A DNA stretch of 37,237 nt from positions 1-37,237 of the forward strand of contig JANQJV010000193.1 of assembly GCA_028281465.1 (NCBI GenBank), in the 5' to 3' direction. Both the position numbers and the translations under genes were made by a program. The notes below the pieces were generated by a model, which had not been told where the DNA came from, searched no databases, and saw only the letters and a list, made by a program, of their open reading frames with translations. The stretch is from Azospirillaceae bacterium. Lineage in GTDB: Bacteria > Pseudomonadota > Alphaproteobacteria > Azospirillales > Azospirillaceae. Shown one piece after another: positions 5,708 through 32,591 of the stretch (positions are counted from its first letter, which is position 1; every line of letters starts with the position of its first letter).

Positions 5708-6187
5708 ATGATGCGGATATTGCTTTTTGCCGGACTTTGGCTGGTTCTGACCGAAGCGGATCCCGGCGCCATGCCGGTTGGTGCCCTGGCGGCTCTGGCG
5801 GCCGCCTGGACAAGCAAGCACCTTCTGCCCCCGCAACCAGGGCGGCTGCGCTTGATGGCCTTGCTACGCTTCACCTGGCATTTCCTCAAACTCTCGGTCT
5901 ACAGCGGAATCGACGTCGCCTATCGTGCGCTGCATCCCCGGCTGCCGCTCGACCCTGCACTGGTTGGCGTACGCGTGACGCTGCCACCGGGTATGGCACG
6001 CACGACTTTGGCCAGTGAGCTCAGTCTGCTGCCCGGGACCCTGGCCGTAAGCCAAGATGGTGACGAAGTGGTGTTGCATTGTCTCGACCAAACCCAGCCG
6101 ATCGAACAGCAGGTGAGCACGGAAGGGACGCTGATCACATCCATACTGGGCGACGGTCCGGATGCAGGAGGAACCCGTCATGTCTGA
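5708..6187 (+). CDS. mrpE: Mrp antiporter subunit E, cluster 1
   Basis: The 159-residue product is an MnhE/MrpE-family protein: short N-terminal hydrophobic helices (ILLFAGLWLVLTE; AMPVGALAALAAAW), then FTWHFLKLSVYSGIDVAYRA and a soluble C-terminal half with LPPGM and LSLLPGTLAV, the signature of the family. MrpE is a small membrane subunit required for assembly or activity of Mrp Na+(Li+,K+)/H+ antiporters. It starts the operon; two consecutive ATGs make the exact start ambiguous by one codon, and a GAGGGG sequence lies just upstream. Its 3' end overlaps the mrpF start by 8 nt. Confidence 0.9.
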   Translation: MMRILLFAGLWLVLTEADPGAMPVGALAALAAAWTSKHLLPPQPGRLRLMALLRFTWHFLKLSVYSGIDVAYRALHPRLPLDPALVGVRVTLPPGMARTTLASELSLLPGTLAVSQDGDEVVLHCLDQTQPIEQQVSTEGTLITSILGDGPDAGGTRHV

Positions 6188-6518
6188 GTTTCTCCTGGGC
6201 GCCGCGTTCTTCCTTCTGATCACTGTGGCCGGGGGCCTGGTTCGTGTGGTGCTCGGACCGGACCAGGCCGACAAAATGATGGCGGCGCAGCTTCTCAGTA
6301 GCGGCGGCATTGCGATTCTGCTGATCGTGGGGGTCGGCCTACAGTTGGAGGGGGCTATCGATGTGGCCCTTGTCGTTGCCCTGCTCGCCGCCTTTGCGGC
6401 CGTAGCCTTCGTTAAGGGCACAAGCCAGGCCGGAACAGGAGATCCGGAAGCCGTTGGCGTCGACCAGCTCACCACCCTGCGACAGGACGCACCCCAAGGG
6501 AGGCCCGACAGCCCATGA
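6180..6518 (+). CDS. mrpF: Mrp antiporter subunit F, cluster 1
   Basis: This 112-residue protein has three predicted helices and the MrpF/MnhF hallmark RVVLGPDQADKMMAAQLLSS, followed by AIDVALVVALLAAFAAVAFV. The start is the ATG preceded by AGGAGG; an upstream in-frame ATG lies before the SD and was rejected. The C-terminal tail after about residue 80 is hydrophilic and longer than usual. Subunit F forms part of the E-F-G small-subunit end of the complex. It overlaps mrpE by 8 nt and mrpG by 4 nt. Confidence 0.9.
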   Translation: MSEFLLGAAFFLLITVAGGLVRVVLGPDQADKMMAAQLLSSGGIAILLIVGVGLQLEGAIDVALVVALLAAFAAVAFVKGTSQAGTGDPEAVGVDQLTTLRQDAPQGRPDSP

Positions 6519-6823
6519 CTGCCGCCCTGGACGCCATCACCGTTGTCTTCGTCCTTGCCGGCTGCTTCTTCTTTCTGGCCGGAAACGTGGGCCTGCTGCG
6601 GTTTCCAGACACGCTCACGCGCCTTCATGCCTTGACCAAAGCCGACAATCTGGGGTTGGGCTTGGTCGTGATCGGACTCATGCCGCGCATGGATCACCCG
6701 CTGTCGGCGCTCAAACTGCTCTTGGTCTGGGCGCTCGGCATGTTGGCGGCGGCCACGGTCGGACAGTTGATCGCCCGGTCGGTGCTACGCCGGGGTCTGC
6801 CAATCTGGAAAGGTCCGCAATGA
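6515..6823 (+). CDS. mrpG: Mrp antiporter subunit G, cluster 1
   Basis: The 102-residue membrane protein carries the MnhG/MrpG motif GLLRFPDTLTRLHALTKADNLG, in which RxPDxxxRxHAxTK is diagnostic. Three helices are predicted. It is linked to mrpF and to the following fused mrpB gene by ATGA stop/start overlaps, so translation is likely coupled. In known complexes G sits with E and F and is needed for cation/proton antiport; it has no proton-channel domain of its own. Confidence 0.92.
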   Translation: MTAALDAITVVFVLAGCFFFLAGNVGLLRFPDTLTRLHALTKADNLGLGLVVIGLMPRMDHPLSALKLLLVWALGMLAAATVGQLIARSVLRRGLPIWKGPQ

Positions 6824-7812
6824 CCGCTTTTCCGCTCCTGGACCCGGCCTTGTGTTTCGTCATCCTGACCACCGCGGTTTTGGCAGTAGCCATCCGCACG
6901 GTCTTCGCCGCCGTGGTCTCGTTCATCGTCTTCGGCCTTCTGATGGCGATTGCCTGGGTTCGTCTGGGCGCCGTCGACGTGGCGCTCACCGAGGCTGCCA
7001 TCGGGGCTGGACTCACGGGTGTTCTGTTGCTCAGCACGGTCGCTCGGATCGCCAAACACCGGGCCGACCGCGGCGACGATGTGCCGATCCTGGAGGGACC
7101 GGAACCCGACCCGGCCCCCACCGATCCGTTGCCGGGACTGGCCACGCAGTCGCTGGCTATCGTGCTGTCCGCGGCCGTTGCCGCAGCTCTGGTGGCGGCG
7201 GTCGCTTTGCTGCCCGTTCCGGCTCCTGGCTTGGTCGCCGAGGTGGGAAGCCGTCTGTCCGAAACTGGCGTGGAAAGTCCGGTGACGGCGGTGCTCCTCG
7301 CCTATCGCGGCTACGATACGCTGTTGGAAATCGTCGTTTTGCTGTTTGCCCTGCTCGGTGTCTGGTCGCTGACGGCCGACGCCCGCTGGGGTGGCCAACC
7401 CGGGTTGCGTCATCTGGCGCGGCCCGACGGGGTGATGGCCTATCTGGGCCGGCTGTTGCCCCCGATCGGGCTTCTCGTGGGCGTTTATCTGTTCTGGATC
7501 GGCGGCTATCGGCCCGGTGGCGCGTTTCAAGCCGGCACCGTTCTGGCAGCCGTTTGGCTTCTGGCGGTCATGGCGGGGCTTGTGCCCATCCCCAAGGTCT
7601 CGGGCATCCGCCTGAGGCTTGCCCTCGTTATCGGTCCGGCGGTGTTCCTGGCCATTGGCCTCGCCGGTTATCCCCTGCACGGTGCCTTTCTCGGCTATCC
7701 CCCGGCGATTGCCAAGGTGCTGATCATCCTCATCGAAGCCGGGCTGACCATATCCATCGCGACGATTCTCGGCCTTCTCGTGGCCGGCGCTCCTGAGGAG
7801 CGGCCGTCATGA
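6820..7812 (+). CDS. mrpB: Fused MrpA C-terminal (DUF4040)/MrpB subunit, cluster 1
   Basis: This 330-residue membrane protein joins pieces usually split between MrpA and MrpB. Residues about 1-80 hold a DUF4040-type domain ([16 protein letters not shown]). A middle part with VTAVLLAYRGYDTLLEIVVL resembles MbhE and the C-terminal end of MrpA. The last third is an MnhB domain (PPIGLLVGVYLFWIGGYRPGGAFQAG). The start is the ATG in ATGA overlap with mrpG; the frame is open far upstream but that is mrpG in another frame. Cluster 1 has no full-length MrpA, so this gene supplies its C-terminal functions. The linkage of DUF4040 to MnhB resembles Mbh/Mbs-type gene order more than bacterial Mrp order. 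Confidence 0.88.
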   Translation: MTAFPLLDPALCFVILTTAVLAVAIRTVFAAVVSFIVFGLLMAIAWVRLGAVDVALTEAAIGAGLTGVLLLSTVARIAKHRADRGDDVPILEGPEPDPAPTDPLPGLATQSLAIVLSAAVAAALVAAVALLPVPAPGLVAEVGSRLSETGVESPVTAVLLAYRGYDTLLEIVVLLFALLGVWSLTADARWGGQPGLRHLARPDGVMAYLGRLLPPIGLLVGVYLFWIGGYRPGGAFQAGTVLAAVWLLAVMAGLVPIPKVSGIRLRLALVIGPAVFLAIGLAGYPLHGAFLGYPPAIAKVLIILIEAGLTISIATILGLLVAGAPEERPS

Positions 7813-8162
7813 GTGTCGATAGTCTGTTCACCCAACCGGGCCTTTACGGCGTCACCGGGGCCCTAGCGATTGGCATCGGTGTTTATGGGCTGATTGTGCG
7901 TCCGCACCTGGTACGCAAGATCATTGCCGTGAATATGGTCGGGAGCGGTGTTTTCCTCCTATTCGGCGCGGTCGCGGATCGCGCCGCACCAGGACCCGGT
8001 GGTGATCCTGTTCCGCACGCCATGATCATCACCGGCATCGTGGTGGCCTTGTCGGCCACCGCGCTTGCCGCCACCCTGACGCTGCGCCTGTCGCGGGAAA
8101 CCGGGCGCACGGCGCTGCCGCCCGAACCTGAAGACCCTGCGGTCCAGGACAAGGAGTCCTGA
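7809..8162 (+). CDS. mrpC: Mrp antiporter subunit C, cluster 1
   Basis: The 117-residue protein has three helices and is homologous to NuoK. Key stretches are GVYGLIVRPHLVRKIIAVNM and DPVPHAMIITGIVVALSATALA, matching the MnhC pattern in which [PQ]xALxxTxIVI closes helix 3. It starts in an ATGA overlap with the fused mrpB and is followed after 2 nt by a GTG-started mrpD. MrpC is thought to carry part of the lateral ion pathway between B and the D subunits. Confidence 0.9.
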   Translation: MSVDSLFTQPGLYGVTGALAIGIGVYGLIVRPHLVRKIIAVNMVGSGVFLLFGAVADRAAPGPGGDPVPHAMIITGIVVALSATALAATLTLRLSRETGRTALPPEPEDPAVQDKES

Positions 8163-8164
8163 CC

Positions 8165-9685
8165 GTGCCAGGGGTTGTTTGGGGACCGGATGTCGGCTCC
8201 GGATTGCTAGCGCTGGCGGTGGTTCTGCCAGTGGCCGGTGCGCTGCTGATCCTGCCTTTGGGCCGCCACGCCGAACGGGTGCCCCACTTGCTCTTCATGG
8301 CAGGTCTGGTGTTGGCGACCGCGATCGCCTACCATGTCTGGATCGGCGGCGTGTTGACCGCCGCCATCGGCGGATGGCCGGCGCCGCTGGGCATTGTCTT
8401 GCGGGCCGATGGCCTGTCGGCCGTCATGCTGTTGACCACGGCCTTGGTCTTGGTGCCGGTGGGCATTTTTGCTGCCGGAGAGTTTCAACCAAGAACCGCG
8501 GATGGCCGGGAAAGCCGGGCCGGCCTTCTGTTTTGGCCGCTTATGATGGGAGTCTGGGCCGGCCTCAACGGCACCTTCCTCAGCAACGATCTCTTCAACA
8601 TCTATGTTGCCTTGGAATTGCTGACCTTGGCTGCCGTGCCACTGGTGACGCTGGAAGGTAAGGCCGGCACGCTGGCTGCAGCATTGCGTTACCTCTTGTT
8701 CGCTCTGCTCGGATCGCTGCTCTATATGCTGGGTGCGGCGCTGCTGTATGGCACGCACGGCACCCTGGACCTGACGCTCCTGGCCGACCGGGTTCGCGAC
8801 GATGCGTCGGCGCTGATCGCGGCTGCCCTTATGACGGCGGGTTTACTGGCCAAGACGGCCATGTTCCCGCTCCATTTGTGGTTGCCGCCCGCCCACGGCG
8901 GTGCGCCGGCCGCAGCAAGCGCCATCTTGTCGGCCCTGGTGGTCAAGGCATCGTTTTATCTTGTCGTCCGGCTTTGGTTTGACTTGTTCCCAAGCCTCTT
9001 GGACGACACCGGCGCGACCGTGCTTGGCTTGTTCGGTGCCGCGGCGATCCTGTCTGGGTCCGTCTTGGCCCTGCGCCAAGCACGCCTGAAGCTGCTTGTG
9101 GCCTATTCCACCCTGGCTCAGCTTGGGTATCTGTTCCTTATGTTCCCGCTCGCCGGCGGGGGAACGGAAGCGCAGCCGTGGACCGCCGGCGCCTGGAGCG
9201 GGGGCATCTTCCACGCTGTCTCCCATGCGTTCGCCAAGGCGTCGCTGTTCCTCGGCGCCGGGATTCTCGTGCAGGGCATCGGCCACGACCGCATCGCCGA
9301 TCTGCGCGGTGCCGCCCGGTCTCTGCCCATGGTCATCGCGGCGTTCGGCCTGAGCGGGCTGTCGCTCATGGGGTTGCCGCCGAGCGGCGGATTCATCGCC
9401 AAATGGCTGCTCCTGACCACGGCCATGGCCTCCGGACGCTGGGGCTGGGCGGTGGTGATGTTCGCCGGCGGCCTTCTGGCGGCGACCTATGTCTTCCGCG
9501 TCCTAAACCGGGCCATGGCAACGCCGGAGCAGCCGCTGCGCCTGGTGCAGCCGGTTCACCAAAGCCGCCAGCTCGCCGTGCTGTTTCTGGCACTGGTCTC
9601 CGTGTTGCTTGGGTTGGTGCCCGCAATTCCATTTGAGTTGCTCCAGATCGGCGGGGGCTTGTCGACGGTGGAGGGGTTCCGATGA
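8165..9685 (+). CDS. mrpD: MrpD-type proton-channel subunit, cluster 1, first copy
   Basis: This 506-residue polytopic protein, about 14 helices, belongs to the NuoL/M/N-MrpA/D family. The functional residues are present: the TM5 glutamate E151 in NIYVALELLTLAAVPL, the TM7 lysine K230 in GLLAKTAMFPLHLWLP, a lysine in the TM8 segment SALVVKASFYLVVRL, and GFIAKW in the TM12 region. It starts with GTG two bases after mrpC. It probably forms one antiporter-like channel. Of the three D-type genes in this cluster this is the most MrpD-like. Confidence 0.9.
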   Translation: MPGVVWGPDVGSGLLALAVVLPVAGALLILPLGRHAERVPHLLFMAGLVLATAIAYHVWIGGVLTAAIGGWPAPLGIVLRADGLSAVMLLTTALVLVPVGIFAAGEFQPRTADGRESRAGLLFWPLMMGVWAGLNGTFLSNDLFNIYVALELLTLAAVPLVTLEGKAGTLAAALRYLLFALLGSLLYMLGAALLYGTHGTLDLTLLADRVRDDASALIAAALMTAGLLAKTAMFPLHLWLPPAHGGAPAAASAILSALVVKASFYLVVRLWFDLFPSLLDDTGATVLGLFGAAAILSGSVLALRQARLKLLVAYSTLAQLGYLFLMFPLAGGGTEAQPWTAGAWSGGIFHAVSHAFAKASLFLGAGILVQGIGHDRIADLRGAARSLPMVIAAFGLSGLSLMGLPPSGGFIAKWLLLTTAMASGRWGWAVVMFAGGLLAATYVFRVLNRAMATPEQPLRLVQPVHQSRQLAVLFLALVSVLLGLVPAIPFELLQIGGGLSTVEGFR

Positions 9686-11166
9686 CCGGGATGCTGCCGC
9701 TTCTCATTCTCTCCACGTCGCTGGTGCCGGCGGTGGTCATCTTCTTTCTGCCCGAGGCGGCAACACGTGTGCGCGCCGCCGTGAATTTGATCGGTGCGCT
9801 GGCCAAGCTGCCGCTGGTCGGCCTGATTTTGGACGGTGTCGCCGCTGGGGAGCAGTATGAGCTGCGGTACACCCTCGTCCCCGGACTCGACTTCCTGCTC
9901 CGCATCGATGCGCTTTCGCTCCTGTTCCTGAGCTTGTCCGCCTTTCTATGGCTGCTGACCACCCTCTATGCCCTGGCCTATCTGCGCGACGGAGCGAACC
10001 AGTCACGTTTCTTCGGTTTTTTCAGCCTATGCGTGGCTGCCACCACCGGCATCGCCATGTCCGGGTCGCTCATCACCTTCTTCCTCTTCTATGAGCTCCT
10101 GACCCTATCCACCTGGCCGTTGGTGGCGCATCGCGGCGACGCCCGGTCCATCGCGTCTGGCAGCCATTATCTGGCTTACACGCTTGCGGGCAGCACGGCC
10201 CTGCTCTTGGGAATCGTGTGGTTGGAGGGCCAGGTCGGACCGGTGGAATTCGCCGCGCAGACGGGTATCGCCGGCGCCGACCCGAACACGCTGCGGTGGA
10301 TCTTTCTGCTCATGGTGGGCGGTTTGGGCGTCAAGGCGGCCCTGTTTCCGCTCCATTCCTGGCTGCCGGCGGCCATGGTGGCGCCGGCTCCGGTGAGCGC
10401 GCTTTTGCATGCGGTCGCCGTGGTCAAGGCCGGCGCCTTCGGCATCGTGCGCGTGGTCTACGACGTGTTCGGCATCGGGCTCGTGACCGACTTGGGCCTC
10501 GGGGTTCCACTCGCGGCTGTGGCATCGTTCACCATCATCTACGGCTCGCTGCGCGCTCTGAACCAGAGCGACATCAAACGCCGGCTCGCCTACTCCACGG
10601 TCAGCCAGGTATCGTACATCATCCTGGGCACCGGCCTTGCGGGACCGACGGCCATGATCGGCGGTCTGGTCCACCTGATCCACCAGGGCCTCATGAAGGT
10701 GACGTTGTTCTTCTGCGCCGGGGCTTTGGCGGAGACCCTGCACATCTACCGGATACAGGAGGTCGACGGCTGCGGCCGGCGCATGCCCGTCACCATGCTC
10801 GCGTTCAGCATCTGTGCGGTCGGCATGATCGGTTTGCCGCCGGTCGCCGGCTTCGTGAGCAAATGGTATCTGGGTACCGGTGCCATTGAAGCCGGCCAGA
10901 TCTGGGTGCTGTTCGTGCTGGCCGGCAGCAGTGTGCTCAACGCCTTGTATTTCCTACCCATTCTTTACCGCACCTGGTTCCGGCCGGCCACCGGGACCTG
11001 GCGCGAGCCTTTGACGCCCCTGCCGGCGGCCAAGGTGTGGGGGTTGGTGAGTCCCGCGGTCGCCACGGCCGTGGCCTCTCTGGCCTCCGGCCTTCTGGCG
11101 GCGGCCCAACCGTTCAGCCCGCTCGGGTGGGCCACTCTGATCGTGACCCGGGACTACGGACCATGA
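9682..11166 (+). CDS. MrpD/NuoL-type channel subunit, cluster 1, second copy
   Basis: A 494-residue membrane protein of the same family, linked by ATGA overlap. It keeps the TM5 glutamate E138 (FFLFYELLTLSTW), TM7 lysine K218 (GLGVKAALFPLHSWLP), SALLHAVAVVKAGAFG with histidine and lysine in TM8, and FVSKWYLG. The paired histidine and SALLHA sequence resembles MrpA/NuoL more than MrpD, so it may take the place of the missing N-terminal MrpA half. Function: proton translocation as part of the complex, inferred from conserved residues. Confidence 0.87.
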   Translation: MTGMLPLLILSTSLVPAVVIFFLPEAATRVRAAVNLIGALAKLPLVGLILDGVAAGEQYELRYTLVPGLDFLLRIDALSLLFLSLSAFLWLLTTLYALAYLRDGANQSRFFGFFSLCVAATTGIAMSGSLITFFLFYELLTLSTWPLVAHRGDARSIASGSHYLAYTLAGSTALLLGIVWLEGQVGPVEFAAQTGIAGADPNTLRWIFLLMVGGLGVKAALFPLHSWLPAAMVAPAPVSALLHAVAVVKAGAFGIVRVVYDVFGIGLVTDLGLGVPLAAVASFTIIYGSLRALNQSDIKRRLAYSTVSQVSYIILGTGLAGPTAMIGGLVHLIHQGLMKVTLFFCAGALAETLHIYRIQEVDGCGRRMPVTMLAFSICAVGMIGLPPVAGFVSKWYLGTGAIEAGQIWVLFVLAGSSVLNALYFLPILYRTWFRPATGTWREPLTPLPAAKVWGLVSPAVATAVASLASGLLAAAQPFSPLGWATLIVTRDYGP

Positions 11167-12872
11167 ATGCCGGTTTTCTGTTGGTCGCCGCGCCGGCGAC
11201 CCCGCTCGTTCTGCTCCTGGCGGGTTTGCTCGTGCCGCCGCTGCGCCGCCATCTGCCCGATTTTTTGGCACAGGCCCCCGTCCCGGCGCTCGTCGCCGCC
11301 TTCCTGGCCATGGGCAACGCGTCGGTGGACGGCGAGACGCTGCTGCTCGGCATGGCGCTGCGACTGGATTTCCCCGGCGCCGTATTGTTGGGCTTCTGTG
11401 CTCTGCTCTGGATCACGTGCGGTGCGTTTGCCAGCACCTATATCCGCGGCTCGGCTGACCGCGAGCGTTTTAGCGTCTTTTGGCTGCTGACGCTCTCAGG
11501 CAATCTCGGCGTCTTCATCGCCGCCGATATCATCAGTTTCTACCTCGCCTTCGGACTGGTCAGCTTGCCGGCCTATGGCCTCGTGGTCCACGACGGCACG
11601 GATCGATCGCGCCGGGCCGGCCTATTCTATCTGGTCCTGGCTGTGCTTGGCGAGACGTGTTTGTTGCTCGGGCTGATGCTCATGGCATCCGGCGCGGACA
11701 GTCTGTTGATCAGCGATGCGGTGGGCGCGATCCCAAGCCTGCCGTACCGGGATCTGACCTTGGGCCTGCTTGTCGCCGGATTTGGATTGAAAGCCGGGCT
11801 GTTCCCCTTGCACGTGTGGCTGCCCATGGCACACCCGGCGGCGCCCACGCCGGCATCCGCCGTGCTGAGCGGCGCCATCATCAAGGCCGGCATCATCGGC
11901 CTCATCAAGTTTTTGCCTTTGGGCACCGGTCTTCCGGAGTGGTCCCTTGTCCTGACCACCGCCGGTTTGTTTACGGCATACTTCGGCGTGCTCATGGGCG
12001 TGACCCAGAGCCACCCCAAGGCGGTGCTGGCGTATTCCAGCCTGAGCCAGATGGGCTTGGTGATCACGCTCCTGGCGTCCGGGCTGGTCGCCGCGGGTGT
12101 GTCAGCCGGTGATGTGGGCGCGGACCATGGTGCGGATGGCATTGCCCAGGTTGCGGCGTTCTACGCTGTCCATCACGGGCTGGCCAAAGGCGCGCTGTTT
12201 CTGGCCGTCGGCGTGGTCGGCGCGACGGGGGCGGCGCGGATTGGGCCGGTTCTGGCCGTCACCGCCGTGATCGCCCTTGGTGTCGCGGGTTTGCCGTTGA
12301 CCGGCGGGGCTCTTGCCAAACTGGAGCTGAAAGGGCCGCTCGGTGGCGGCCTGGTGGAGACCCTGGTGGCGTGGTCGGCCGTGGGGACCGCGCTGTTGAT
12401 GCTGCATTTTCTGCGCCGGTTGCGCATGGCCGCCTCTGCCGATGCGGCGGCGCGTCCGTCGCCGGGCTTGTCATTGCCCTGGGGCGCCACGGTCCTGGCG
12501 GCTGCGCTGGTGCCTTGGGGCCTGTATGCGGCCGCCGGCAGCCACGACCTCGCTTACGCGGTCAAACCCGGCAATCTCTGGGCTTTGACGTGGCCGATCC
12601 TCTTGGCCGGGATACTCGGTTGGAGCCTGCGCCGGATACGGCTGCCGTCAGTGCCGGAAGGCGATATCGTCGAACCCATTGCACGGCTTCTTGAACCCGT
12701 GCGATCGGTCCGGCTGCCGCCGCTGCCGGGTGTGCCGAGCATCGTTGAGGCCGTGGGGCGGGCTGCCGCCGGCATCGTGGTGGCGGCCGAGGCGCCGGTC
12801 CGCCCCTTCCCGGCTGCCGGACTCGCCCTCCTGGCCGTCGCTGCGATCATGGCTTTCGCTCTGGCCGGGTGA
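11163..12872 (+). CDS. MrpD/NuoM-like channel subunit, cluster 1, third copy, lacking the TM5 Glu
   Basis: The 569-residue product continues the operon by ATGA overlap. TM7 (GFGLKAGLFPLHVWLP, K210) and TM8 (SAVLSGAIIKAGIIGLIKF) are conserved and GGALAKLELKG replaces the TM12 motif. In TM5, however, where both paralogues have E, this one reads FYLAFGLVSLPAYGLV with G131. A glutamate appears later in VLAVLGETCLLLG, possibly TM6. The C-terminal about 100 residues form an extra amphipathic stretch (ILLEPVRSVRLPPLPGV-like) and a last helix, longer than a normal MrpD. It may be a modified or non-pumping channel. It ends the operon; no clear terminator is seen before the convergent cluster. Confidence 0.85.
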   Translation: MNAGFLLVAAPATPLVLLLAGLLVPPLRRHLPDFLAQAPVPALVAAFLAMGNASVDGETLLLGMALRLDFPGAVLLGFCALLWITCGAFASTYIRGSADRERFSVFWLLTLSGNLGVFIAADIISFYLAFGLVSLPAYGLVVHDGTDRSRRAGLFYLVLAVLGETCLLLGLMLMASGADSLLISDAVGAIPSLPYRDLTLGLLVAGFGLKAGLFPLHVWLPMAHPAAPTPASAVLSGAIIKAGIIGLIKFLPLGTGLPEWSLVLTTAGLFTAYFGVLMGVTQSHPKAVLAYSSLSQMGLVITLLASGLVAAGVSAGDVGADHGADGIAQVAAFYAVHHGLAKGALFLAVGVVGATGAARIGPVLAVTAVIALGVAGLPLTGGALAKLELKGPLGGGLVETLVAWSAVGTALLMLHFLRRLRMAASADAAARPSPGLSLPWGATVLAAALVPWGLYAAAGSHDLAYAVKPGNLWALTWPILLAGILGWSLRRIRLPSVPEGDIVEPIARLLEPVRSVRLPPLPGVPSIVEAVGRAAAGIVVAAEAPVRPFPAAGLALLAVAAIMAFALAG

Positions 12873-12942: not shown

Positions 12943-13335
12943 CTAACTGTGTTCCACCGGAGGCTCCGAAGTGGTGGTTCGAGCCGCGGCGGCCTGGACC
13001 GGTTCGCCAGATATCTCCTTGCCCGCCAGTTCATCGACAATGGTGCCTTCCCAGAGCCGTACGCCGGCGCGATAGGCCGCTCGGCCGATCATATGGGCCG
13101 CCACCGGTGCCGTGATAAGGAGAAAGACAAGGGCGGAAATGGCCCGCGTGCCGACGCTCAATTCGCCGAAATGCAAGGCCACGGCCAACAACATGAGACC
13201 GGCGCCGAGCGTACCGGTCTTGGTCGACGCGTGCATGCGGATGTAGGTATCGGGCATGCGATAGACGCCCACAGCGGCGCCGAAGGCAAAAACACCCCCA
13301 CACAGAAGAAGAAGCGCCACGATCACATCGATCAT
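12943..13335 (-). CDS. mrpG: Mrp antiporter subunit G, cluster 2
   Basis: The 130-residue membrane protein has the MnhG motif VYRMPDTYIRMHASTKTGTLG and three helices, with a hydrophilic tail (after about residue 95) longer than the family norm. It is the last gene of the minus-strand operon and its ATG overlaps the mrpF stop by 4 nt. It shares only the diagnostic motif with the cluster 1 MrpG, so the two clusters are not a recent duplication. Confidence 0.92.
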   Translation of the reverse strand: MIDVIVALLLLCGGVFAFGAAVGVYRMPDTYIRMHASTKTGTLGAGLMLLAVALHFGELSVGTRAISALVFLLITAPVAAHMIGRAAYRAGVRLWEGTIVDELAGKEISGEPVQAAAARTTTSEPPVEHS

Positions 13336-13655
13336 CGTTCGTCCCTCGTTCGGCGCCGCTCCAATTGCTGCATGTGGCGGCGTTCGCCATAGAGGGCAAA
13401 TGCTACGGTCGCCAGGAAACCCACCAATGCCAGCATGATCGCCACGTCGAGAAAGGCGCTATATCCGGTTTGGACCGTGTAAAGCGCCATCAGTCCGACC
13501 AGAAGCACGGCCAAGAGGTCGAGTGCCACCACCCGATCCGCCAGATATGGGCCGATGAGGATACGCACGAAGGCCAATGCCATGGCTGCGTAGAACAAGG
13601 CCATGGAGATGCTGACGGCCCAGTCCAACACCGGTGGGAGAGTCTCGTCGGTCAT
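13332..13655 (-). CDS. mrpF: Mrp antiporter subunit F, cluster 2
   Basis: A 107-residue protein with three helices and the MrpF signature RILIGPYLADRVVALDLLAV, then FLDVAIMLALVGFLATVAFA. The tail is rich in arginine and glutamate. It lies in ATGA overlap with both neighbours, mrpE and mrpG. Required small membrane subunit of the antiporter complex. Confidence 0.92.
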   Translation of the reverse strand: MTDETLPPVLDWAVSISMALFYAAMALAFVRILIGPYLADRVVALDLLAVLLVGLMALYTVQTGYSAFLDVAIMLALVGFLATVAFALYGERRHMQQLERRRTRDER

Positions 13656-14119
13656 CGCACCGCCTCCAAGACCTTGAGTTCCATACCAGCCTTCAGATCG
13701 GCCTTCAGCTCTTCGGCGTCATCGATGAACATGGCATGCACGTAGAGCGTGCGTCGGTCCGGCGATACGTCGAGGCTGAGCGTGCCGGGTGTCAATGTGA
13801 TCAGGTTGGCAACCAGAAGGATTTCCGTATCGGTCTCCGCATCCAAGGGCACGGCAATGATGCCGGGCTGCGTCTTAAGCTCGGGCGTGAGCACATCCCA
13901 CAGGACTCGCAGGCTGGACATCAAGAGATCGTAGAGGAAAAAACCAACCAACCCGAGAATTTTGAAAACGCGCTCGAAATAGTCGGTTTCGCCGTAGAGG
14001 AAACGGGTGACCCATAGCGCGCCGTAACCGATGATGTAACCGATGATCAGGTTTCCCAGGGTTAGCGATCCGGTCACCGCGGCCCAGCCCAGGGACAAGG
14101 CAACGTTAAGGAACAACAT
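13652..14119 (-). CDS. mrpE: Mrp antiporter subunit E, cluster 2
   Basis: The 155-residue protein has two N-terminal helices (LFLNVALSLGWAAVTG; GNLIIGYIIGYGALWV) and a soluble half with GIIAVPLDAETDTEILLVAN and ITLTPGTLSLDVS, the MnhE core. Its start lies 14 nt inside the 3' end of mrpD. Compared with cluster 1 MrpE it keeps the LTPGTL motif almost in the standard form. Confidence 0.92.
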   Translation of the reverse strand: MLFLNVALSLGWAAVTGSLTLGNLIIGYIIGYGALWVTRFLYGETDYFERVFKILGLVGFFLYDLLMSSLRVLWDVLTPELKTQPGIIAVPLDAETDTEILLVANLITLTPGTLSLDVSPDRRTLYVHAMFIDDAEELKADLKAGMELKVLEAVR

Positions 14120-15629
14120 GGGCGGTCTCCCGGCTGCCTAGGACGGCGTCGACATAGGCTTGGTTGGACATCACCTGGTTTCCGGCCACCAAGGCGACGT
14201 CGAAAACCGGCTGAATCAGGAGCCCCATCAACACGGTGAAGATCGCCAAGGCGACGATGGGCGCCATGAGCGTCATGGCCGCGTGCGGCTCCAGCCGTGT
14301 GAGAAGCGCGTCGTCCCCGCGCGGGTGCGGCTTCCAAAACGCCTCTCCCCAGATCTTGGTCATGGAAAACAACGTCATGAGACCCACGGCCAGGGCCACG
14401 CCGGCGATCACATACGCCTCTGTTTCCAGGCTTGCCTTCACCAGCGCGAACTTGCCCCAGAAACCGGACAGCGGCGGCATCCCGGCCAGGCCGAACGCTG
14501 AGATCATGAACAAAATGGCGACAAACGGTGTGCGCTTGTAAAAGCTACCAATATCATACAGATGAAATGATCCACCAAGTCGCTGCATCACGCCACTAAT
14601 AAGGAACAAGTTGGTCTTAGCCACGATGTTATGCACCATATAGAAGAGGGCAGCCGCCAACCCCAGCGGTGTGAACAACGCCAGCCCCATGATCATATAA
14701 CCAATCTGGCTGATGATGTGGAACGACAGGAGCCGGCGCACCTCCATCTGCGCAGCCGCGCCGAGCACGCCCGTCACCATGGTGAAGCCGGCGATGATCA
14801 GCAAGAGGTTGTGGGTAAACCCGATGTCGTGCGTGAAGATCAACGTGAACACGCGGATCAGGGCATAGACACCGACCTTGGTCAACAGGGCGCCGAAGAT
14901 CGCCGTCACCGACACCGCCGGTGTATGATACGATGCTGGAAGCCAGAAAAATAGCGGGAACAGGGCCGATTTGATGCCGAACCCAAGAATGAAAAGCGTG
15001 GCCACCACCGTCAGCAGTGCGGGGTTGTCGATGTCGCGGAGCGTGACGTGCAAGTCCGCCATGTTCAACGTTCCGGTCATGCCGTACAGCATGGCCACCG
15101 ACATCAGGAACATCACCGTGGACACGAGGTTGATGGCCACATAGCGAATGCCGCCGTCCATCTGCGCCTTGGAGCCGCCGAGCACGATCAGGCCGAATGA
15201 GGCCATCAGCATGACCTCGAACCAGACGTAGAGATTGAAGATGTCGCCGGTCAAGAAGGCACCGGCGACGCCGGCCAGTAGCACGTGATACAGGGCGTAA
15301 TAGCCGGAGCGCTGCAACGGCTGGGTAATGTCACCCAGGCTGTAGACCGTGACCAGAAGTCCCATGATCCCGGTCATGAGCACCATGACGGCACTCAGCA
15401 TGTCGGCGACGAACGTGATGCCGAAGGGCGCCGGCCAGTTGCTCGCTTGCATGGCCACCGGGCCGTGGCTCCAAACCACCATGAAAAGACCGGCACTCAC
15501 CCCCAATACCAGCACGGATCCGGCGACGCTGAGGCTGCGGCAAACCCAGGTGTTGTGCCGGAACACATAGCACAGAATTCCGGTGACGAAGGAGAGCAGC
15601 ACCGGCCCGATCAGGAGTGTCTGGGTCAT
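14106..15629 (-). CDS. mrpD: Mrp antiporter subunit D, cluster 2
   Basis: This 507-residue, roughly 14-helix protein is a canonical MrpD. It has the TM5 glutamate E138 in FNLYVWFEVMLMASFGL, the position shown to be essential in Bacillus MrpD, and the TM7 lysine in GFGIKSALFPLFFWLP. Other conserved stretches are AIFGALLTKVGVYALIR, SFHIISQIGYMIMGLA, MVHNIVAKTNLFLI and GFWGKFALV. The start overlaps the mrpC stop (ATGA). A local dip in GC at about 14540-14700 falls inside the gene, without any break in the frame. Confidence 0.94.
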   Translation of the reverse strand: MTQTLLIGPVLLSFVTGILCYVFRHNTWVCRSLSVAGSVLVLGVSAGLFMVVWSHGPVAMQASNWPAPFGITFVADMLSAVMVLMTGIMGLLVTVYSLGDITQPLQRSGYYALYHVLLAGVAGAFLTGDIFNLYVWFEVMLMASFGLIVLGGSKAQMDGGIRYVAINLVSTVMFLMSVAMLYGMTGTLNMADLHVTLRDIDNPALLTVVATLFILGFGIKSALFPLFFWLPASYHTPAVSVTAIFGALLTKVGVYALIRVFTLIFTHDIGFTHNLLLIIAGFTMVTGVLGAAAQMEVRRLLSFHIISQIGYMIMGLALFTPLGLAAALFYMVHNIVAKTNLFLISGVMQRLGGSFHLYDIGSFYKRTPFVAILFMISAFGLAGMPPLSGFWGKFALVKASLETEAYVIAGVALAVGLMTLFSMTKIWGEAFWKPHPRGDDALLTRLEPHAAMTLMAPIVALAIFTVLMGLLIQPVFDVALVAGNQVMSNQAYVDAVLGSRETAHVVP

Positions 15630-16036
15630 GATCCGGCCACCTCCGAAGCGCCTTGGCCGTCGGGGGCGGTGGCTTTGGGCGCATAGTCCGTGGTGTCGGC
15701 AATGCGCATGCGGTCGCTGCGTACGGTCCCGAGCTCCTGATAAGTGCGCAGGATGAGAACCACGCTGAAGGCCAGAATCCCGAAACTGATGACGATGGCC
15801 GTGAGGATCAGTGCCTGCGGTAGTCCGTTGGCAACCGATGTGGTGACGGTCTTCAACCCTTCCGGCACCAATGCCGGAACTGCGCCTTCATACCGGCCGG
15901 CGGCCAGGATCGTGAAATTGGCGGCGTTGCTAATCAAAACCAGACCGAACATGAAGCGCACCAGGTTGAGGTTCAGCATCATGTAAATACCGGCCGCGGT
16001 CAGAAAACCAACCAAGAGCGCCAGCAGGGTTTCCAC
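15626..16036 (-). CDS. mrpC: Mrp antiporter subunit C, cluster 2
   Basis: The 136-residue NuoK homologue has three helices: TAAGIYMMLNLNLVRFMFGL, VLISNAANFTILAAG and NGLPQALILTAIVISFGILA, the last being the MnhC signature (DPLPQALVLTAIVI type). The hydrophilic tail is about 30 residues. It begins 3 nt after mrpB and overlaps mrpD by ATGA. Confidence 0.93.
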   Translation of the reverse strand: METLLALLVGFLTAAGIYMMLNLNLVRFMFGLVLISNAANFTILAAGRYEGAVPALVPEGLKTVTTSVANGLPQALILTAIVISFGILAFSVVLILRTYQELGTVRSDRMRIADTTDYAPKATAPDGQGASEVAGS

Positions 16037-16039
16037 CGG

Positions 16040-16459
16040 TCAGATCTCCTCTTCCATGGCGAAGATCACACTCAGCACCGCTCCAACCACAACCAGATAC
16101 ACGCCGATGTCGAAGAGCAGGATGGTGCTGAGCGGCCATCCCTTGTCGCCGTCCCCGCCGCCGACGAACAGCCATTTGCCAGTCAGAAACGGCTCGCCGA
16201 ACAGCATGCCGACGACGCCGGCAGCCACCGCGCATCCCAAGCCGATCAGAGACAACACATTGGGGTGAACATAGAGCGCTCGACGGGCCTCGGCGGTGCC
16301 CCGGCTTTTGCCGTAGAGTGCGAAAGCGATCACGGCCACCAGGCCGCCGATGAAACCGCCGCCCGGTTCGTTATGGCCGCGTAGCAGGAGAAACACGGAG
16401 AACACCAGCATCAATCCGGTGATTAGCCGCGTTGCCGTGGACAGGATCAAAGATGTCAC
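16040..16459 (-). CDS. mrpB: Mrp antiporter subunit B, cluster 2
   Basis: A 139-residue protein with four helices and the MnhB signature [20 protein letters not shown], then [20 protein letters not shown]. Here B is a free-standing subunit, whereas cluster 1 fuses its B domain to DUF4040. The ATG overlaps the mrpA stop codon. Many alphaproteobacteria instead have A and B fused (PhaAB), so this operon has the separate seven-gene arrangement of group 1. Confidence 0.93.
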
Positions 16460-18786
16460 TGGACACTCCCATCGTCATCGCGCCGGGCGGTCAGAGTCTT
16501 CTGCCGAAGACTGATGAGCGCATAAGCGGCGAGGCCGGCCAGCGCAATCACGGCGATCTCGCCCAATGTATCCAGGGCCCGGAAGTCCACCAGAATGACG
16601 TTGACGATATTGCGGCCGTGCGCCGCCGGCACGCTCATGGCCTCGTAGTATTCCGTGATCCTGGTATCCAGCGGAAGGCTGGTGATGGATATGAGGATCA
16701 CCGTCATCAGCGCGCCGATGGCCAGCGACACCACGGCGGCGAATCCATTGGCAAGGCTAAGGCGTGGCCGGAATCGGTCGAGCGGCGGCAGTTCAAGCAG
16801 GGCAATCGCGAGCAAGATAACGAACAGAATGTCGATCAGCACTTGGGTCAGCGCCACGTCCACCGCGCCGTGGACGGCGAACAACATGGCCGTGCCGACT
16901 CCGACAGCCCCCAACGCGCAGATGGCGGTCAGACGGGAATTCGCGACGATGGCCGTCGCCGTCCCGGCAACGATGAGCAAGGCCGCCGCCCAGGCGAATC
17001 CGGTGGCATCCAAGAGATTGGTTTGCATGGGCAAGACATTTCCGCGCACCAAGCTCCAGCCGGTCAGAATGACGATAGTGGCGAAGATCGTCCCCAGATA
17101 GCCGCGCAGAGACCCATGCTGCAGGACACGGGTCTGCCAGGCGGCGAACGCCTTCACTCCGGCCAGAGCGTGGTCGTACCCCTGTTCGGCCGTCAGCGGC
17201 ACACGGGCGGCAGTCCGTTCCAGAGCCGCGCGGATTGGTGCACGGAAATGCCAGCAGGCATAGCCCAGGGCGAAGGTGGCCAGGCTGAGTAGCAACGGCA
17301 GGTTGATGCCATGCCACAGTGCCAGATGCACCGAGACCGGCGATCCATAGACCGCTGAGGTCGCCGGGCCGATCAGTGGATCGGCAAGCCAGAACGGCAG
17401 CAGACCCATGAGCAGGCCGAGCGTGCCGAGCACCGCCGGGCCTAGCCACATGGCCAAGGGTGGATCATGGGGCGGTGCTGGCCATGACCGTTCCGGTCCA
17501 ATGAACGGTGCCACGGCGACGATGCCCGCGGCGCCGATCATCATGGCGTTGGCGGCGAGGGCGAAACCGGCGACGAGGGCGGGCAGGGTGGCGGCGTGCA
17601 GCGCACCCTCGTACATGACCTCCTTGCCGATGAAGCCGATGAACGGGGGCAGTCCGGCCATGGAGAGGGCCGCAGCGACGGACAAAGCGAAAACCTTGGG
17701 CATGGCGCGCCGCAGGCCGGACAGCTCATCCCGGTCTCGTGTGTGCGTGGCATGGTCGATGGCGCCGACCGCCAGGAACAGTGTCGCCTTGTACAGGCAA
17801 TGGACGACCAGGAACGTCATAGCTCCCATGACGGCATATTTGTCGCCACCGCCGAGCATCAGCGTCAGGGTGCCAAGCCCCATGATGGTCGTCCAGGCAA
17901 GCACCTGCTTCAGGTCGCGCTGATACAGCGACCAGACCGAGGACATGACAGCCGTGATACCGCCGGCCAGGGTCAAGGCCCAGACCCAGCCATCGGTGCC
18001 GCCGAGTGTCGGGTGCAGGCGGGCCATCAGATAAATGCCGGCCTTCACCATGGTGGCGGAATGCAGGTAGGCGCTGACCGGGGTGGGCGCCGCCATGGCG
18101 TTCGGTAGCCAGAAGTGGAACGGAAACTGGGCCGATTTGGTGAAGCAGCCGATCAAAACCAGCGCCAAGATGGCGCCGTACAAGCCATGTTCGCGGATGT
18201 CCACGGTGCCGGCGCGCAGGTCGCTCAGCTCGAAGCTGCCGCCGATGAGGCCGAGCAGAATCAGGCCGGCGAGCATGGCGAGGCCGCCGAGACCGGTCAC
18301 CAGCAAGGCTTGGAGAGCCGAATACCGCGACTTCGCCTCGTCATGGGTAAAGCCGATCAGCAGATAAGACGTGATGGTTGTCAATTCCCAGAAAACGAAC
18401 AGCGTGATTATGTTGTCAGACAGAACCACACCGAGCATGGACAACATAAACAGCGTTAAGACAATGAAAAAGCGTGTATTGAATGCGTAGTGCTCCATGT
18501 AGACACTGGCGTAGGAGAATACGACCACGCCGATTCCACTGATCAAGAGGGCAAAGAGAAGTCCTAGTCCATCCACGTACAGCGACAGCGACACGCCCAG
18601 ACCGGGAAACCACGGCATGGCCCAGCGCAGGATGTCGCCGCCCGCAATGCTGGGGGTGAGGCTGAGGAAGATCAGCGTCAGGACGGCCGGTAGAGCCGTG
18701 ACCGCGACCAGCTTGCGTAGCCGTTTGCCCGTGGCGGCCGCATGGGTGTCGTCATGGGCGGATGCCGGTTCAGCGAACTGAGCCAT
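16456..18786 (-). CDS. mrpA: Mrp antiporter subunit A, cluster 2
   Basis: The 776-residue, about 20-helix protein is a full MrpA. The N-terminal NuoL-like domain has the TM5 glutamate E134 in [33 protein letters not shown] around TM7, [15 protein letters not shown] in TM8 and [11 protein letters not shown] near TM12. The C-terminal part has the DUF4040-type segment [20 protein letters not shown] and an MbhE-like end ([19 protein letters not shown]). The size fits MrpA without a fused B domain. It is the first gene of the operon, with GAGG about 9 nt before the ATG. A 10-bp inverted repeat lies about 54 nt upstream of the start codon. Confidence 0.95.
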
Positions 18787-30213: not shown

Positions 30214-30837
30214 TCAGCGTGTTGCCACCGCCGATACCGTCCCGGTGTGTTGGGCCGAGGACCACAAGGTCCCGTCGGCGAATTCACCGAGTGGTTGCTC
30301 CGGCGTGCCGATCGCGTCGATAACTGCAAAAACGTAATGCGCCGCCAAGGCCCCCACGATGCCGGCACCGAAGCCCAAACCATGCGCGGTATCGACCACC
30401 TGCGAGACGACGCGCGCCGGGATCGCTGGGCGCATGGCCACAAGCCCTACGCCGGCTGCCGGCGCGGCCATGGCGGCCGCTGCCGGGGCTGCAACCGCCG
30501 CCGGTGGCGCGGCGGCGATCGTCACCGGCGCCGCGCTGCCGGCGATCGCAGCCCAGGCGCGACCACCCTGTAGAGCCACCCAACGAAAGGCGGCATGCAC
30601 GCGGCCGAAGTAGGGCGACAGGGTCGGGAGGTGCGGCACCAAGGTTTCCAGGGCATAGTTAAAGGCGATCATCCCGAACACGGCGCCTGCCCCAACGATC
30701 ATCAGGCGCCGGCTGTCGGCGGGTGTCGACGTGTCCGTCGGCGGCGCCAGGTCGATCTGCGCATGAGCCGGCTGGACGGTCACCGGAAGTACCGCCAACA
30801 GCGTCAGCAGCAACAGGATGCTCACGATCCGGCGCAT
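30214..30837 (-). CDS. Exported small-protein family member 5, extended (unknown)
   Basis: This 207-residue protein is the long member of the array. It has a signal peptide ending PAHAQ (about 26), a first helix with RLMIVGAGAVFGMIAFNYAL, matching the array motif G-A/G-x5-F-N, then an alanine/proline-rich stretch (APPAAVAAPAAAAMAAPA) and a glycine-rich C-terminal helix GFGAGIVGALAAHYVFAVID. GGGAGG lies 7 nt before the ATG. It lies last in the array, on the same strand. I do not recognise the family; the shared helix motif is seen directly, homology is inference. Confidence 0.75.
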   Translation of the reverse strand: MRRIVSILLLLTLLAVLPVTVQPAHAQIDLAPPTDTSTPADSRRLMIVGAGAVFGMIAFNYALETLVPHLPTLSPYFGRVHAAFRWVALQGGRAWAAIAGSAAPVTIAAAPPAAVAAPAAAAMAAPAAGVGLVAMRPAIPARVVSQVVDTAHGLGFGAGIVGALAAHYVFAVIDAIGTPEQPLGEFADGTLWSSAQHTGTVSAVATR

Positions 30838-30924
30838 GGCGTTTGCCTCCCTTTGCTGGCCCGGGCGGTTTCCATCGGCCGGGCTATGGCCCTAGGCCTG
30901 GCCGGCGGGCGCCGCGGCCTTGGC

Positions 30925-31257
30925 TCAACTGCCGGAATAGAGCCAATTGGCGATCCAGCCGCCGGTGACGGCGCCGACCACCGTGTACAGCCGGCTCAGC
31001 CCCAGCACGGTGGCATCGGCCACAGGACCGGAGGTGGCGTTGGCGACACTAGACGGCAAGAATCCGGCATAGCCGGTACTGAGCAGATTGATGCCGACCA
31101 CACCGGCGACCGCGCCGGTGGCGAGCACCAGGGGGTAGAGCCAGTCTTCAGTATAGGGTTGCGGCTCCGTTGGCAACTGCAGGGGTACCTGGGCCCGCCC
31201 GGGAAGGGCCGTCATGGCGAGGCAGAGCGCGGCGATGGCCAGCCAACGAGTGTGCAT
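30925..31257 (-). CDS. Exported small-protein family member 4 (unknown)
   Basis: The 110-residue product has a signal peptide ending PGRAQ (about 23), a proline-rich spacer, TM1 LVLATGAVAGVVGINLLS and TM2 LYTVVGAVTGGWIANWLY near the end. The pattern G-A-x5-N in TM1 and G-x-W-x4-W-x-Y in TM2 recurs in the other members. SD AGGAG lies 8 nt upstream of the ATG. It follows member 3 by 100 nt and precedes member 5 by 87 nt. Likely an inner-membrane protein with a short periplasmic N-terminus after cleavage, or a hairpin with both tails outside. Function unknown. Confidence 0.75.
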   Translation of the reverse strand: MHTRWLAIAALCLAMTALPGRAQVPLQLPTEPQPYTEDWLYPLVLATGAVAGVVGINLLSTGYAGFLPSSVANATSGPVADATVLGLSRLYTVVGAVTGGWIANWLYSGS

Positions 31258-31357
31258 CTGTCTGTTCTCCTCACGTGCGCGCGCCGAACCGGCCGGAGGG
31301 TGGCATCGCGTGTGCTTAAACGGTTGGTCGGGCCTCGTAAGTCCAGGTCAGGTCAGG

Positions 31358-31687
31358 TCAATTGAGAATGAGATAAAGAAAATGGCCGACGGTGATGCCA
31401 GCCGCTGCGGCCAGAACGGCAGTGAACCGGCTACCCGCGATCACCGGTGCCGAGGCATGGGCGACGGCACCACCGACGAGCGGGATCGATCCGAACGGTT
31501 CGGACAGGACATTGAAGAAGACGACGGCCAAAATAGCGCCGGCGCCAACGGCCAGCATGCGGTGCTCCTGCGGTTCCGCATACCGCATCGGCATCGAGAC
31601 CTCGGACTGGGCATGTGCCGGTTGCAGTGTTGTGACCGCCAGCACGCCAACCAAGGCCACAAGGGCGGCCATCAAGACCTTGCGCAC
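31358..31687 (-). CDS. Exported small-protein family member 3 (unknown)
   Basis: The 109-residue product begins at a GTG with GGAGG at 5-nt spacing; an ATG six codons upstream has a poorer site. The signal peptide ends QPAHAQ (about 27). TM1 is MLAVGAGAILAVVFFNVLSE and TM2 is AAAAGITVGHFLYLIL at the very C-terminus. The segment between helices (PLVGGAVAHASAPVIAGSR) is glycine/alanine-rich. The array motif G-A-G-A-x5-F-N is clearest here. I see no catalytic residues and no cysteines in the mature part. Confidence 0.75.
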   Translation of the reverse strand: MRKVLMAALVALVGVLAVTTLQPAHAQSEVSMPMRYAEPQEHRMLAVGAGAILAVVFFNVLSEPFGSIPLVGGAVAHASAPVIAGSRFTAVLAAAAGITVGHFLYLILN

Positions 31688-31741
31688 ATGTCCCTCCGTC
31701 GCCATGCCCGATGCCGCCTGGTCCCGTGCTGCGGTCCGGCG

Positions 31742-32068
31742 TCACCAGTCCATGTAGATGTTGTCGGCGATCCAGGCACCGGTCACGGCGACCGAGATCG
31801 TCCAGAAATTGCTTAAAGCCAAGGCCCGATAGGCTGGCACCGACCCGCCTTGGGCGACCGCTCCGGCTAGCCCCGGCAGTGCCCCGAACCCGTAGGCCGC
31901 GAAATTCCAGACCAGGATGGCCGCCATGGCGCCCACGCCGACGAACAACGGATAAGCCGGATCGGTCGCCGGCGTCGGCACCGGCGAGACGGGAGGAGTC
32001 TGCGCGACCGCAACGGGCGTCCAGGCCAGGCTCAACGCCAGCAACAACGCCAGAAGCTGACTGCGCAT
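31742..32068 (-). CDS. Exported small-protein family member 2 (unknown)
   Basis: The 108-residue protein has a signal peptide ending AVAQ (about 23), a proline/threonine-rich spacer (TPPVSPVPTPATDPAYP), TM1 LFVGVGAMAAILVWNFAAYG and TM2 FWTISVAVTGAWIADNIYMD ending in DW. The start was set at the ATG with GGGAGAA upstream; the frame is open for 35 more codons without SD. G-x-G-A-x5-W-N and G-A-W-I-A match member 4 (G-G-W-I-A) especially well. A 13-bp hairpin lies in the spacer upstream of this gene. Confidence 0.75.
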   Translation of the reverse strand: MRSQLLALLLALSLAWTPVAVAQTPPVSPVPTPATDPAYPLFVGVGAMAAILVWNFAAYGFGALPGLAGAVAQGGSVPAYRALALSNFWTISVAVTGAWIADNIYMDW

Positions 32069-32101
32069 GCCGTTCTCCCAAGCAGAACTTGCCAGGTACG
32101 A

Positions 32102-32133
32102 TTGGCTGCCCGATCCCGTAATCGGGCAGCCAA
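32102..32133 (-). promoter_or_regulatory. 13-bp hairpin between array members 1 and 2
   Basis: TTGGCTGCCCGAT (32102-32114) and ATCGGGCAGCCAA (32121-32133) form a perfect stem with a 6-nt loop, 33 nt upstream of member 2's start. Without a U-tract it is not a classical terminator. It may set different expression levels for member 1 and the rest, by processing, attenuation or 5'-end protection. Confidence 0.5.
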
Positions 32134-32267
32134 GAAAGCGCGTTACCGTAGACGGCAGGGAGTCGAGCGTCAAGGCGGTCCAGCCGCAACACGCGATGCG
32201 GTGTCACATTCCGGACACGCCTCTCCCACGTGCCGGCTTTTGCCTCCCTCGCGAGGACGCGAGCGGG

Positions 32268-32591
32268 TTACTCGGCCGTGTTTGGCGCCCGGATATAGGT
32301 CGTGTAGAACCAGTTGCCGGCTGCACCACCGATCAACGCCACACCGATGATGGCAACGCCGCGTCCCAGATCGGCCAGCACCGCCGAGATCACGGAATTC
32401 TGGCTCAAAAGATTGAAGGCGAGTACGGCCGTGACGGCACCGCCGCTGACTGCCAGTACCTGGGATACGTTGACGTCGCGCATGCCGGCGAAATGGTCCA
32501 CCGGTTCGGTCTGCGCTTGTGCCACCGCCGGCAGCCAAATCAGGCACGCCACCAACACGATTTTCGCCAGCCGCGAAAGTCCGATCCCCAT
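32268..32591 (-). CDS. Exported small-protein family member 1 (unknown)
   Basis: The 107-residue product has a signal peptide (LVACLIWLPAVAQAQ, cleavage near 27), a short acidic spacer with VDHFAGMRDVNVS, TM1 VLAVSGGAVTAVLAFNLLSQ and TM2 IIGVALIGGAAGNWFYTTYI. It contains the array motif G-G-A-x5-F-N-L-L and the W-x-Y end of TM2. The ATG lies within a short direct repeat (CCGATCCCCATGC twice) and its SD is weak; no other in-frame start keeps the signal peptide intact. It is the first of the five genes, 146 nt downstream of the YejE-like gene on the same strand. Confidence 0.75.
   Translation of the reverse strand: MGIGLSRLAKIVLVACLIWLPAVAQAQTEPVDHFAGMRDVNVSQVLAVSGGAVTAVLAFNLLSQNSVISAVLADLGRGVAIIGVALIGGAAGNWFYTTYIRAPNTAE

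Follow-up and report, generated by a model that had tools for sequence, protein, structure and literature searches.

Tandem genes for small exported two-helix proteins in an Azospirillaceae bacterium: candidate paralogous subunits of one inner-membrane assembly

Mic10, a protein of the mitochondrial MICOS system, is a two-helix hairpin that carries a GxxxG motif in its first helix and further glycines in its second (PMC10803214). These glycine motifs mediate the formation of oligomers that have been suggested to bend the membrane, and both termini of the protein face away from the matrix, on the side that is comparable to the periplasm (PMC10803214). The current study describes a bacterial locus encoding small proteins of similar outline, on a stretch of 37,237 nucleotides from an Azospirillaceae bacterium (contig JANQJV010000193.1 of assembly GCA_028281465.1), which is referred to here as the window. 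Taken together, the observations are best explained by a tandem array whose products are paralogous subunits of a single assembly in the inner membrane, a reading to which we assign a probability of roughly 0.7.

The array and its two-helix module

The five genes are transcribed in the order g1 to g5 on the minus strand, which corresponds to the subfamily order D-A-B-C-F, and together they span positions 30214-32591 (Table 1). Codon usage gave a coding signal for all five open reading frames (log-odds +32 to +49). The positions, strand and lengths put forward in the original prediction were confirmed, that of g3 on the condition that translation starts at the GTG; the alternative is a longer, ATG-started reading from 31705, and the GTG start is also found in the subfamily B relatives on a second contig of the same genome (C317) and in another Azospirillaceae genome (G009). 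Shine-Dalgarno-like sequences lie ahead of g2, g3, g4 and g5, and none is clear upstream of g1, in agreement with the predicted four. All five proteins have a signal-peptide-like N-terminus ending in Ala-Gln. The motif proposed for the first helix is present in all of them, although with a spacing of six residues rather than five (G-A-x6-[FWI]-N), and the W/F-x-Y ending ascribed to the first four proteins was found at the C-termini of g1, g3 and g4, whereas g2 has N-I-Y instead.

Table 1 Genes of the array in the window
Gene	Subfamily	Position	Strand	Product
g1	D	32268..32591	-	107 aa; signal peptide and two helices, with a very short loop between them
g2	A	31742..32068	-	108 aa; signal peptide and two helices; opens the A-B-C trio
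g3	B	31358..31687	-	109 aa from GTG 31687; preceded by GGAGGG
g4	C	30925..31257	-	110 aa; signal peptide and two helices; AlphaFold2 hairpin
g5	F	30214..30837	-	207 aa; same helix 1, then a long Ala/Pro-rich stretch between the helices and, after helix 2, a C-terminal tail, which set it apart

The same strand carries, upstream of the array, genes for an OppC-like permease and a methyltransferase and, three genes upstream, one for an MlaD-domain protein; a PAS histidine kinase lies downstream. Elsewhere in the window, two convergent sets of genes for Mrp-antiporter-like membrane subunits (6162-12872, plus strand, and 12943-18786, minus strand) were assigned by eye. The right end of the window contig, C301 (36868-37150), resembles that of C317 (L008:10890-11064), with GRPVSERR in the translation, and this shared sequence is probably a dispersed repeat that broke the assembly.

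Among 40 modules of the family, G24 and A25 of helix 1 were present in all, G28, which completes a GxxxG motif, in 37, and N33 likewise in 37. Helix 2 starts with S64-R65 (R65 in 39/40) and contains an invariant G75 and, in 36 modules, A79. The conserved polar residues are located mainly near the helix ends, the middle of the helices is rich in Gly and Ala, and no conserved polar helix face that would suggest a pore was seen in the 40 modules. Lys and Arg are slightly more frequent in the loop than in the two tails (1.07 vs 0.50 and 0.33 per protein). Ahead of the module, nearly all family proteins show a small-x-Ala site with Gln after it, and then a linker rich in Pro, Ala and Gln. The AlphaFold2 model of g4 (model m76ef9464131f) predicts helices at residues 16-36 and 58-84 of the mature part, with a mean pLDDT of 80.5 and values of about 96 in the helix cores. 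A further observation concerns the N-terminal segment: in seven of eight sets of paralogues from the same genome (e.g. L077:2112-2771), the first 18 residues resemble one another more closely (54-65%) than the mature parts do (35-39%); the window set is the exception, with 29% compared with 35%.

Homology, subfamilies and distribution

To score the window proteins, HMMs were built from other genomes only, with the signal peptides removed, and 1000 shuffled window proteins served as the null. The mature proteins were matched by these models with E-values of 4.7e-28 for g4 (C model), 1.4e-21 for g3 (B model), 2.1e-19 and 4.3e-14 for g2 (A and C models, respectively), 1.9e-13 for g1 (D model, built from five proteins) and 1.2e-11 for g5 (F model), and g5 was also matched by a profile devoid of any F protein (6.8e-9); the best E-values among the shuffled sequences were 0.007-0.14. 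In profile-profile comparison, the probabilities were 99.5% for A-C, 98.5% for A-B and 97.3% for B-C, on which basis g2, g3 and g4 can firmly be regarded as mutually homologous. The values of 95.5% for A-D, 93.6% for A-F, 55% for C-F and 35% for D-F suggest a weaker case for the homology of g1 and g5 to this A-B-C core. The predicted similarity among the five was therefore borne out by profile comparison, firmly for g2 to g4 and less so for the two outer genes.

An alignment without signal peptides contains six subfamilies, five of which are represented in the array, the remaining one, E, having no member in the window. In the tree, subfamilies B, C, D and E each form a single clade that extends across genera or species, and subfamily A, where g2 occupies a long branch, needs two changes; this is in line with the old duplications that had been proposed. 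The g3 protein groups with the B proteins and g4 falls in the C clade, each together with the copies from C317 and G009. By BLAST, g4 is A-like, whereas the tree places it in C, and the subfamily assignments of g4 and g2 are less sure than that of g3. All six subfamilies are under purifying selection (dN/dS 0.08-0.43).

None of the five window proteins scored above a cut-off in Pfam or NCBIfam, searches of PHROGs, PADLOC and PDB gave scattered weak matches to the family and no convincing one, and the structure search with the hairpin model returned no match at E up to 0.001, an absence that does not show a new fold. The literature search yielded no paper on the family. These results support the original proposal that the array represents an undescribed membrane protein family. 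Carriage by phages or plasmids was considered and rejected, as a C-type protein had no match among plasmids, the fused ABC protein of Stella described below had none among phages, and no viral contig was confirmed.

A profile of 20 family proteins was used for a census of other genomes, as the original prediction had envisaged, and it recovered relatives with a patchy distribution: family-bearing genomes numbered 12 of the 82 from the order, 3 of 385 in a sample of the class, one of them the window's own, and 2 of 398 in a sample of the phylum. The patchiness extends to genera, as the family was found in all five genomes of a genus of MAGs (g6), in two of five genomes of another (g8) and in three genomes of a large genus (g11), of which two or more are Azospirillum. 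A six-row profile scan of the genome contigs was biased towards A- and C-type motifs, and several of the genomes are MAGs with possibly wrong names, above all one labelled Thiotrichales (Gammaproteobacteria), in which an A-B-C trio close to those of g6 (L102:7848-9048) reflects either transfer or wrong binning. Because it is absent from most relatives, the family does nothing universal.

Other sets of similar proteins were also observed. Two g6 genomes (L084:7368-9132 and L086:2693-4093) carry tandem genes for small exported two-helix proteins, flanked by rplI-like and dnaB-like genes, and a related protein is encoded at the start of L087 in G009. Profile comparison of these sets with the array family gave 92.8%, and a wider superfamily may include both. 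Three small exported proteins with two glycine-rich helices (L092:46-1730), from a genome of another family (G428), gave 95.5% in profile comparison to subfamily D.

Gene order and stepwise fusion of A, B and C

The A, B and C modules occur at three levels of organisation. They are encoded by separate genes in the window, in a second trio of the same genome on C317, in G009, where an A-B-C-F cluster lies near the contig start, in the five g6 MAGs, which have two clusters per genome (A-B-C and D-E-F), and in the Thiotrichales MAG. In Azospirillum halopraeferens, A. oleiclasticum and Skermanella aerolata, an A gene is accompanied by a fused BC gene encoding 197-219 residues, the two genes overlapping by 4 bp in S. 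aerolata, and in an Acetobacteraceae MAG this A + BC unit occurs twice in tandem. A single ABC protein unites all three modules in Stella sp. ATCC 35155 and MAG 336R. Stella vacuolata (L094:8001-8913) and MAG SJ646 (L099:7809-8710) have the ABC arrangement with a frame that is interrupted in the deposited sequence, owing to either sequencing error or decay. Placed end to end, g2, g3 and g4 of the window align with the Stella ABC protein over its whole length (34% identity). The order A-B-C is constant in genes and fusions alike and, wherever present, D comes first and F last.

The fusion of neighbouring genes in unchanged order is a classical sign that the separate proteins act together. The stepwise fusion of A, B and C in a constant order therefore suggests that they act in one assembly and, since a mere ten residues or so connect B to C in the fused proteins, the B and C hairpins must be neighbours. 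That the same modules occur as three genes, as A + BC or as one protein argues strongly, though indirectly, for one six-helix inner-membrane unit built by A, B and C, and it lends indirect support to the hetero-oligomer of the original prediction. A defined A:B:C complex is the joint prediction of gene order, the two levels of fusion and the subfamily clades. The link of D and F to the trio is limited to gene order and the weaker homology.

For the AlphaFold2 model of the Stella ABC protein, the input consisted of ABC rows and trimmed BC rows, as aligning single modules to ABC misplaced the B modules. The model has six main helices, with a pTM of 0.69 and a mean pLDDT of 69.7 from a shallow alignment of nine sequences, and it found no significant match in PDB (E up to 0.001) or in viral structure libraries, which again does not establish a new fold. 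As the fused Stella protein carries the whole core, its structure, pore activity and membrane bending become approachable with a single gene.

Proposed assembly, alternatives and comparison with known systems

We propose the following sequence of events. Each protein would be exported by the Sec pathway and cut ahead of the Gln. Entry through Sec, removal of the signal peptide and two membrane passages leave both ends of a protein on the periplasmic side. The mature protein would accordingly remain in the inner membrane as a hairpin with periplasmic ends and a cytoplasmic loop ending in Ser-Arg, a topology suggested by the signal peptide, the two helices and the loop Arg. The fusions fit this arrangement because they join successive modules through their outer ends. 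The GxxxG motif of helix 1, together with the invariant Gly and the further small residues of helix 2, could allow tight helix packing. The A, B and C hairpins would then lie side by side in fixed composition as a six-helix unit, to which the genes at the ends of the array may contribute D and F as further hairpin subunits, F adding its long flexible stretch. As for the task of such an assembly, a membrane scaffold driven by packing is our tentative guess, to which we commit ourselves with low confidence. We rank it above a channel because conservation falls on small residues and end caps and not on a polar helix face.

The first alternative is a pore or channel, as suggested in the original prediction, with the hairpins of A, B and C arranged around a lumen. 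A hetero-oligomer of small hairpins could make a ring, polar residues recur at N33, S64-R65, S71 (75% polar) and position 80 (D/N/H; 80% polar), and the best VIA match of the ABC model was a designed channel, with a Z of 5.8 that does not exceed the noise level given for such helical models. However, most of the polar conservation lies towards the helix ends, leaving a Gly/Ala-rich middle that suits tight packing, the structure searches gave no significant match to a channel fold, and the genes around the array differ from genome to genome; we consider a channel unlikely. The neighbours of some family genes point instead to envelope transport, with the proteins as accessories of Mla-type lipid transport or copper handling. 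In S. aerolata, the A + BC genes directly follow a fused MlaFE-like ABC ATPase-permease, with MlaA and DUF6524 in the locus; in MAG 336R, the ABC gene starts 7 bases after CopD and is followed by a multicopper oxidase (CopC, CopD and the oxidase being annotated by eye); and the window has its MlaD-domain gene upstream. Against this, of the 82 genomes 18 have the MlaFE-like protein and 12 the family, and only four have both; the MlaFE-like protein is absent from the window's genome, all g6 genomes and G009; and at other loci the neighbours are ImuA-like, purH or ribosome-related. We rate a role in transport as distinctly improbable, and the MlaFE-like ABC locus was rejected as an obligate partner, its presence not coinciding with that of the family. 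DUF6524, on which no paper was found either, was likewise rejected: 23 of the 82 genomes have it, among them 9 of the 12 with the family, but it often occurs without the family and, in the window's genome, lies on other contigs. The MlaFE-like fusion itself belongs to a recurring uncharacterised locus, with a partner of about 375 residues, a soluble protein of 142 residues, DUF6524 and often MlaA and a CzcA-type efflux pump (L076:2627-17998 with L077:45-1598; L079:3794-16999; L120:7471-17998; L100:11768-16055).

Two further explanations concern the proteins themselves. If the N-terminal segment were left uncleaved, each protein would have three helices, and the closer resemblance of the first 18 residues in seven of the eight paralogue sets is unusual for signal peptides. 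The small-x-Ala site with its Gln and linker in nearly all proteins argues against this, as do the fused B and C modules, which lack the segment and hence do not need it, and the window proteins, in which it is not specially conserved; we regard an uncleaved segment as very unlikely. The five could also be unrelated hydrophobic exported proteins that are alike by composition, as Gly/Ala-rich hydrophobic helices converge easily and the D-F link is weak. Yet the scores of the window proteins against window-free models without signal peptides lie far beyond those of shuffles of the same composition, each subfamily recurs at the same place in the gene order of other genomes, and the glycine-zipper, pilin and c-subunit controls do not match. 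On the sequence evidence this explanation is refuted for g2 to g4, and for the array as a whole it is hardly credible.

Each of these controls has features in common with the array proteins. The glycine-zipper 2TM domains (PF05433 Rick_17kDa_Anti and PF13488) also place two short glycine-rich helices in exported proteins, but hhalign of the family and its subfamilies against 16 PF05433 domains gave 0.3-15.7%, and the window proteins had no Pfam match to these domains up to an E of 5. The TrbC/VirB2 pilins (PF04956) share the signal peptide, two hydrophobic helices and similar size, but the hhalign probability was 0.1%, and only g1 matched, with an E of 3.9 and 8.2 bits against a cut-off of 27.9; type IV secretion genes were absent among the predicted genes of the window, and PF04956 was not matched in the window's genome. 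The c subunit of F-type ATP synthases is a hairpin with a glycine-rich first helix, but it too gave 0.1%, and helix 2 of the family lacks a conserved acidic residue at its centre, where Gly, Ala and Val prevail, the D/N at position 80 being at the end of that helix.

The scaffold that we favour is best compared with Mic10. Mic10 was not among the Pfam matches of the five window proteins, and a search with 20 relatives (E up to 0.1) did not return it either. Both are small two-helix hairpins, as modelled for g4, with a GxxxG motif in helix 1, whereas the array family differs in its at least six paralogous subfamilies, its signal peptide and its natural three-module fusions. Mic10-like oligomerising hairpins are the best analogue by architecture only, with the topology and the oligomers of the family being our inference. 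In its most far-reaching form, the proposal is that some alphaproteobacteria shape or organise their inner membrane with a hetero-oligomeric scaffold of three paralogous hairpins, which certain lineages, such as the star-shaped Stella, have joined as one six-helix protein; it would be an analogue of Mic10 or the reticulons that is related to neither, and we regard this version as a long shot. If the array does encode a membrane scaffold, it would bear on the organisation of the inner membrane in alphaproteobacteria, the group from which mitochondria came.
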